Assembly (NCBI GenBank): GCA_003135635.1
Contig: PLCJ01000002.1
Coordinates: forward strand, 1 to 44,897
Length of the DNA: 44,897 nt
Source: Candidatus Adlerbacteria bacterium
GTDB taxonomy: Bacteria; Patescibacteriota; Minisyncoccia; Phycocordibacterales; SBAW01
Reading direction: 5' to 3'
Position 1 is the first letter of the stretch. Every line of letters begins with the position of its first letter. Position numbers and translations under genes: made by a program. Below are positions 25,899-27,642 of the stretch, in pieces. The notes beneath the pieces are model-generated. The model was not told where the DNA came from and ran no database searches. It worked only from the letters and a program-made list of their open reading frames with translations.

Positions 25899-26966
25899 AT
25901 GTCCCTTGAGTATTTAAATGCCACGTGGTATGGTGGCGCCAGATTATCCTCCTTCTCCTTATTTATTAAGCTACTTCTTATGACTATTACTATTCGTTCT
26001 CTAGCGTTTTTTGCTTTAGTACTCGGCGGGCTGTTGGCAATGGGTGCACCTGCGCTTGTCTCCGCCCAGATGGTGCCTTGCGGTTGGTATTATAACGGTT
26101 CTTCTAGCTCTTCTTGTGGCACGGGGACGCTTCTTGTATATGTGCAGTCTCTCAATGGGACTGGCAGCTCTTACTATTATGGGAACTATGGAAACGGGAA
26201 CTATGGAAACGGGAACTCCTATTCGTCATCTAATTTTACCGTGCAGGTCTCTGGACAAAATGCTTCTCCATCATCTTTTGTCGGTTCACAAAGTGGTACG
26301 CTCGTCTCCATAACAGGGGGAAGCTCCTATTCCGTAACGGTGCCGCAAGCTTTTGGATATACACCATCTTATTCGGTTGGATGTAATGGAACTATTGCTG
26401 CCAACCAGCAGGCAACCTGTGTTGTTACTATGAGCGCTGGCTCGACCTATTCTTCCTATCCGCAACCGTATCCCTATCCCTATACCTATTCCACACTCTC
26501 CTGCAACCCTTCCTATCAAACGGTCTCCGCAGGACAAGTAGCGACTTTTACTGCAACTGGAGGTAACTCCGGGGTCTATAACTGGATGACCGCCGATCGA
26601 TCATACCAAGGGATAGGACCAGTTCTTAACACATCTCTTGAAAGCAGCGGTACCCAAACGGTAACAGTGTCCGATGGTTACCAGACGGCAACGTGTACGG
26701 TTATGGTAGTGGTAAATGGTGTTATTACCTATCCCGGATCTCAGACGTACATCCCCCCTGCTGCCCAATATGCGTATTCCGGATCTCAAGCGTACGGTTC
26801 TTCTGCTGTCTCTGCTGTCCAATACACATATGTACCAAATGTTCCCAACACCGGGTTTGCTCCGATTAGTGCATCAAGCATCACTTTTGCGCTTGTTGTA
26901 TTGATGGGGTTGTGTGTCTTCTCTTTCCCCTATGTCAGAAAAGCATTTGCTATTGTTCTCCGCTAG
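25899..26966 (+). CDS. Sortase-anchored surface protein
   Basis: Exported protein ending in a sorting signal: VPNTG (315-319), a hydrophobic helix (about 327-344) and a basic tail (RKAFAIVLR). The next gene is a sortase. The mature part is Tyr-, Ser-, Gly- and Asn-rich (YYYGNYGNGNYGNGNSYSS) with a beta module near 115-175 and an Ig/PKD-like domain near 205-272 (SCNPSYQTVSAGQVATFTATG). Start choice: ATG 25899 has AAGGAG 8 nt upstream, but ATG 25980 would start directly at the signal peptide (MTITIRSLAFFALVLGGLLA); the first is kept because of its ribosome site. Confidence 0.85.
   Translation: MSLEYLNATWYGGARLSSFSLFIKLLLMTITIRSLAFFALVLGGLLAMGAPALVSAQMVPCGWYYNGSSSSSCGTGTLLVYVQSLNGTGSSYYYGNYGNGNYGNGNSYSSSNFTVQVSGQNASPSSFVGSQSGTLVSITGGSSYSVTVPQAFGYTPSYSVGCNGTIAANQQATCVVTMSAGSTYSSYPQPYPYPYTYSTLSCNPSYQTVSAGQVATFTATGGNSGVYNWMTADRSYQGIGPVLNTSLESSGTQTVTVSDGYQTATCTVMVVVNGVITYPGSQTYIPPAAQYAYSGSQAYGSSAVSAVQYTYVPNVPNTGFAPISASSITFALVVLMGLCVFSFPYVRKAFAIVLR
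26184..26218 (+). repeat. 15-bp tandem repeat in the sortase substrate gene
   Basis: AACTATGGAAACGGG occurs twice in direct succession and begins a third time (26184-26218), encoding NYGNG units. A slippage-prone point for length variation of the surface protein. Confidence 0.65.
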
Positions 26967-26967
26967 G

Positions 26968-27642
26968 ATGGCGGTTCTGTCTTCTTCTCGATCGACTCGC
27001 AGTTTCTACCTACAAATCGCTTGTATTGTTGTGGGTATCTTTGTGGTGCTTGTGGGGGCCGCGGATGTCACGGCGCGTGTTGCGCGCAGCGCGTTTGGTC
27101 CCAACGCCGCTTTTATGGCATTTGCTCCAGCGGTTGCGCTTAATAATCCGCTCTTTGTACAAAATAGTCCCAGCACGCCGATTGCGTCCACAACTCCACT
27201 CACTCCTGCGCGGCTGGTTATTCCAGTCATTGGGGTCAATGCTGCAGTTGAACAAGTTGCAAACAAGGCCGATGGGTCCATGGGTACGCCGAGTACCTTC
27301 GGCGATGTTGCTTGGTACATGCTCGGACCGAAACCTGGAGCACCAGGCAATGCGGTTATTGATGGACACGTCAATAACGCACTTACCACCGCTGGCGTGT
27401 TTGAACATCTCTCACAGCTCAAAGCCGGTGACTTGATCATGGTTTCCGATGCCACAGGCAAGACACTTACGTATACGGTGCGTGGAGTTGAGGCTTATGG
27501 AACAAGCAATACGCCGATTGACAGTATATTTACCACCACCGGACCCTCACAACTTGTGCTTATCACGTGCGAGGGGGAGTGGGTGCAAAGCCAACATTCT
27601 TTTAATGAACGCTTAGTTGTCTACGCACTTCTCAATACGTAA
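26968..27642 (+). CDS. Sortase (class E/F-like transpeptidase)
   Basis: Membrane-bound cysteine transpeptidase that cleaves LPXTG-like signals and attaches proteins to the wall. 224 residues from the ATG at 26968: TM helix (about 14-33), a Ser/Thr/Pro linker, then the sortase barrel with His134 (DGHVNN), Cys201 (LVLITCEG) and Arg215 (FNERLVVYA), the full catalytic triad. The ATG lies 1 nt after the stop of its presumed substrate, so the two are co-translated; upstream in-frame starts at 26914 and 26932 would overlap that gene. Subclass is uncertain. Confidence 0.93.
   Translation: MAVLSSSRSTRSFYLQIACIVVGIFVVLVGAADVTARVARSAFGPNAAFMAFAPAVALNNPLFVQNSPSTPIASTTPLTPARLVIPVIGVNAAVEQVANKADGSMGTPSTFGDVAWYMLGPKPGAPGNAVIDGHVNNALTTAGVFEHLSQLKAGDLIMVSDATGKTLTYTVRGVEAYGTSNTPIDSIFTTTGPSQLVLITCEGEWVQSQHSFNERLVVYALLNT

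Follow-up and report, generated by a model that had tools for sequence, protein, structure and literature searches.

Sortases work on proteins that are exported by the Sec pathway and retained in the membrane by a C-terminal helix; the catalytic cysteine cleaves between the threonine and the glycine of the sorting motif and the protein is transferred to a cell-wall precursor. In class GN, known from marine proteobacteria (TIGR03784), the sortase has one adjacent target. The sortase described here is not the same in target family or in lineage, and its score with the class GN model is weak, far under the cut-off (34 bits, cut-off 158). It is encoded in what is called here the window, the whole 44,897-nucleotide stretch of contig PLCJ01000002.1 of Candidatus Adlerbacteria bacterium. 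Cases in which an accessory sortase gene sits next to that of its substrate are already known, for example streptococcal SrtB, which shares one conserved locus with its single adhesin substrate AbpA (available part of PMC4974636). The window pair has the same layout, but the two systems differ in other respects. SrtB is a class B enzyme and its signal is cut between T and S, whereas the window sortase is class F-like and its presumed signal is VPNTG; AbpA has an alpha/beta and coiled-coil structure, binds amylase and forms a ladder; and gene overlap does not come up in the part of the SrtB-AbpA report consulted (PMC4974636), while the window genes most likely overlap by 35 nt.

The class that best matches the window sortase is class F (model NF033748, 121 bits, under the curated cut-off of 166), described from Actinobacteria as SrtF of Propionibacterium acnes and SrtF1-4 of Actinoplanes missouriensis (PMC13251363). 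In the latter organism, five genes for sortases and eight for candidate substrates lie at separate loci, a mutant lacking the four srtF genes showed no phenotype, and what class F sortases do physiologically is stated to be unknown (PMC13251363). In contrast to these scattered genes, two class F-like sortases in the window genome each adjoin a substrate. A sortase family, fam000526, is reported from the majority of CPR genomes (available part of PMC6744442), and the window genome, with its 602 kb, is presumably of the CPR kind. Cognate substrates and gene overlap are not described in that part of the report (PMC6744442), whereas the window locus has a likely cognate substrate and a probable gene overlap. 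Surveys record candidate-phyla sortases mostly without partners, while several class F-like sortases in the present material have an obvious cognate substrate. Since these substrates carry distinguishable signals, one-to-one specificity is directly testable in vitro. No report of the gene overlap or of an arrangement in multiple cassettes was found in the limited open-licence literature searched, and a search on single-target proteobacterial sortases and related terms returned nothing useful.

The locus as a whole is likely to be a cassette for cell-wall anchoring, made up of one enzyme and one substrate. The gene for the substrate lies on the forward strand at 25899..26966 and encodes 355 aa, or 328 aa if translation starts at the ATG at 25980. 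The choice between these starts is ambiguous: the first is preceded by a good Shine-Dalgarno sequence, and the ortholog alignment begins at the second. The predicted signal peptide MTITIRSLAFFALVLGGLLAMGAPALVSA (25980..26069) ends in VSA before a Q, and the pattern AxA followed by Q is kept in orthologs. At the other end (26841..26963) the protein has the motif VPNTGFAP, a hydrophobic helix and the tail PYVRKAFAIVLR; the PNTG codons occupy 26844-26855 and 40 aa separate PNTG from the C terminus. This end, and the open reading frame itself, are as originally predicted. An exported protein whose C terminus combines such a motif with a hydrophobic helix and a basic tail has an LPXTG-type cell-wall sorting signal, as the window substrate does. 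PF00746 matches this signal weakly in 4 of 29 orthologs; the typical motif among orthologs is LPNTG rather than the VPNTG of the window substrate.

The mature part contains a Tyr/Ser/Gly-rich stretch and two regions with one cysteine pair each. With about 11% Tyr and 6% Asn, it bears out the expected richness in these residues. The first region (26120..26436, approximate boundaries) is prealbumin-like, of the SpaA_2 type, to judge from the alignment and from PF19403 matches in 5 of 29 orthologs, the window protein itself giving no direct match. The second (26496..26718, also approximate) appears to be an Ig/PKD-like beta-sandwich: a PKD domain is matched in 5 of 29 orthologs and a PDB fold search with this part returned generic Ig/PKD matches. 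With alignments of two rows, AlphaFold gave poor models (pLDDT 43 for the sortase and 44 for the substrate), usable only in the Ig-like part of the substrate, where pLDDT was 62-79. In sequence there is also a weak resemblance to an Ig-like repeat protein (PDB 9ncf). The domain types found in some orthologs and the likeness to 9ncf are generic for surface display and name no ligand.

The sortase gene extends to 27642 on the same strand. PF04203 covers the whole sortase domain (E=2e-21), placing the protein in the sortase superfamily, and the complete catalytic set that had been predicted is there: His146 (codon 27367..27369), Cys213 (27568..27570) and Arg227 (27610..27612), all invariant in 29 aligned orthologs. 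The NF033748 match is by far the best among the class models, yet at 121 against 166 bits it does not amount to formal class F membership and the enzyme is best termed class F-like. Promoter and terminator scans gave results near chance.

The sortase ATG had originally been placed 1 nt beyond the stop codon of the substrate gene. Such an ATG is present (26968), but the real start is probably the one at 26932, inside the 3' end of the substrate gene, because an in-frame ATG is found there in 30 of 30 orthologous loci and because the codon choice around it is strongly biased. The ATG at 26968, in comparison, recurs in just one other locus among the 30 (L034), and it was rejected as the start. 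The corrected gene (26932..27642) encodes a protein of 236 aa (MSEKHLLLFSAR...), so that the overlap amends the N terminus of the enzyme. The 35 nt shared by both genes (26932..26966, forward strand) encode the substrate tail in one frame and the sortase N terminus MSEKHLLLFSA in the other; across the loci the overlaps measure 29-35 nt, and the N terminus in the sortase frame reads MSEKxLLLxSAK genus-wide. The ATG is formed from the Tyr/His and Val/Ala codons of the PYVRK tail of the substrate. Its Tyr/His codon ends in T at all 30 loci, compared with 20-67% of comparable codons elsewhere in both genes; the joint log10 p of about -12 for this bias assumes independent loci and is an overestimate in view of their shared ancestry. 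Of the Arg codons that come next, 15 of 24 are AGR, as against 36 of 378 elsewhere. Both reading frames therefore look constrained, and a 35-nt gene overlap is the most likely arrangement.

Besides the window genome, 30 of 34 other genomes of the genus contain the substrate. At 30 loci, that of the window and 29 others, substrate and sortase are adjacent and co-oriented on one contig; in one further genome (G010) contig ends break up the sortase gene. Three genomes (G004, G006 and G021) contain one full sortase each, of the orphan type without an adjacent PxTG substrate, to which G004 adds a fragment resembling the window sortase. The pair is thus kept across nearly the whole genus, and because it is conserved it is more than a chance association. 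Of 25 other genera that were sampled, none has the full substrate. When 247 genomes of the order were searched with a profile, a shorter version turned up in another family (L130), where the sortase ATG follows the substrate gene at a distance of 4 nt. Over the 30 loci the motif is PNTG in 26, P[RS]TG in 3 and PHAG in one (L023, G014:C5). The latter locus retains the catalytic residues of the sortase, which could point to decay or to a changed specificity.

The window genome (602,608 bases, 95% complete) encodes four sortases, and a reading of the window enzyme as the sole sortase is wrong. Pattern searches for [FLIMV]PxTG and PNTG, with every match read in frame, yielded two C-terminal sorting signals of the [FLIMV]PxTG type in this genome. 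Each is followed directly by a class F-like sortase gene of its own. The second signal protein, on contig 3, is an ice-binding-like/DUF7507 protein of 528 aa, which ends in LPNTGLPP... directly upstream of its own enzyme. The two remaining sortases are without a PxTG substrate next to them: one, which is class F-like, has a PG_binding_1 domain fused to its N-terminal side (L002 1492-2373; G000:C2, sortase domain 107408-107833), and the other is an orphan (L004 1474-2130; G000:C1, sortase domain 139658-140044). In four relatives that have only the window-type sortase and the orphan type, the PNTG search gave one credible signal each.

It had been argued beforehand that many other sorting signals or other sortases in the genome would make the pairing non-exclusive. 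Half of this was encountered, since there are four sortases, one of them an orphan that could share the substrate of the window enzyme, while the signals number only two, with a different sortase each. An adjacent substrate with few or no other signals, within the scope of the [FLIMV]PxTG search in the genome itself and the PNTG search in relatives, is the genomic mark of a dedicated sortase. Judged by gene organisation at the 30 co-oriented loci, the predicted dedication of the window sortase to its neighbour is well supported.

It could be imagined instead that the neighbouring sortase is a general-purpose enzyme, or that the orphan (contig C1:139658-140044) does the anchoring, the pairing being one of genome position. 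This seems rather unlikely. Besides the presence of four sortases, such a view can draw on the orphan type, which occurs in essentially all genomes of the genus and is the most widespread type there, and on the PNTG core, which is common to all signal families, so that cross-reaction is possible. Against it stand the limitation to two PxTG signals, each next to or overlapping its own sortase gene, the retention of the gene overlap in 30 of 30 loci, and the association of sortase clades with signal families. In the genus, type I sortases go mostly with LPNTG[FY]xP, type II with xP[NDES]TG[ATQ]GG and type III with [LF]PNTGxxP; tree support is good for types I and III and only loose for type II.

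This association and the two-signal count lend support to predicted one-to-one cassettes. A wider generalization, tentative and with the chances slightly against it, would be that anchoring in the genus consists of parallel one-sortase-one-substrate cassettes with mutually exclusive signals (PNTGFxP, PNTGxGG and PNTGxPP), and that in the core cassette the start of the enzyme gene lies within the 3' end of the substrate gene, the two being made and inherited together as a result.

For the single cassette of the window, we infer cleavage, wall attachment, disulfides, translational coupling and exclusivity as follows. The substrate would be exported by Sec and cut after VSA; its fold would comprise one or two beta-sandwich regions containing cysteine pairs, while its C-terminal helix would hold it in the membrane. 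The class F-like sortase from the overlapping downstream gene would be anchored via an N-terminal helix, and its translation is probably coupled to that of the substrate by the 35-nt overlap. Cys213 would then cut VPNT from G and the substrate would be transferred to the amino group of a cell-wall precursor, leaving a single, covalently anchored molecule on the surface.

The original prediction also saw in the substrate a variable structure for contact with a host cell. The short tandem repeat on which this partly leaned does exist, as 2.5 copies of a 15-bp unit encoding GNYGN in a loop of the first domain (26181..26217, forward strand; TRF, 100% match). It is limited to the window species, however, and missing from the other aligned orthologs (30 compared), and nothing indicates a host ligand; this part of the prediction found no support. 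Since a 15-bp unit preserves the reading frame, changes in repeat number would not switch expression. The interspecies variation itself is real: in the ortholog alignment, substrate regions between the conserved signal peptide and the sorting signal differ or are missing. Such differences in architecture, with regions lost in several species, would suit a repeat-variable adhesin, as would the presence of an Ig-like protein of surface type in a genome of 602 kb. With so few copies in one species only, and no ligand evidence, an adhesin of this kind is nevertheless improbable.

A covalent pilus, polymerized by a class C-like activity of the sortase, is very improbable: pilins do have SpaA-type prealbumin and Ig-like regions and the class C model gives a weak match (30.9 bits, cut-off 160), but the best model is that of class F, the locus has a single substrate, and the mature protein contains zero lysines, as in 19 of 30 orthologs, which leaves out the pilin lysine nucleophile, speaks against a Lys-linked (class C) polymer and makes a monomer likelier.

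Some further observations concern the other signal proteins of these genomes. On the contig with the second signal of the window genome, two exported ice-binding-like (PF11999) proteins are neighbours (L122 2213-4995, G000:C3), one with DUF7507 repeats and LPNTG beside a sortase, the other with an end region weakly resembling PG_binding_1; they possibly represent two modes of wall attachment side by side. Two similar proteins likewise accompany a sortase in another family of the order (L128). In several relatives within the genus, though not in the window genome (L134, L135, L138, L145, L148, L155, L163, L166 and L188), a second class F-like sortase type has a tiny adjacent substrate, which consists of a signal peptide, about 10-60 Thr/Ser/Gly-rich residues, xP[NDES]TG[ATQ]GG and a helix. 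The predicted mature part can be as small as about 10-11 residues (for instance QSTTTPGTPDT in L134), which is a strange cargo for a sortase devoted to it. Finally, the PNTG scan came across an ORF with repeated GYGTIT-type units that stays open for 394 codons (L196, G024:C1:61215-61229).
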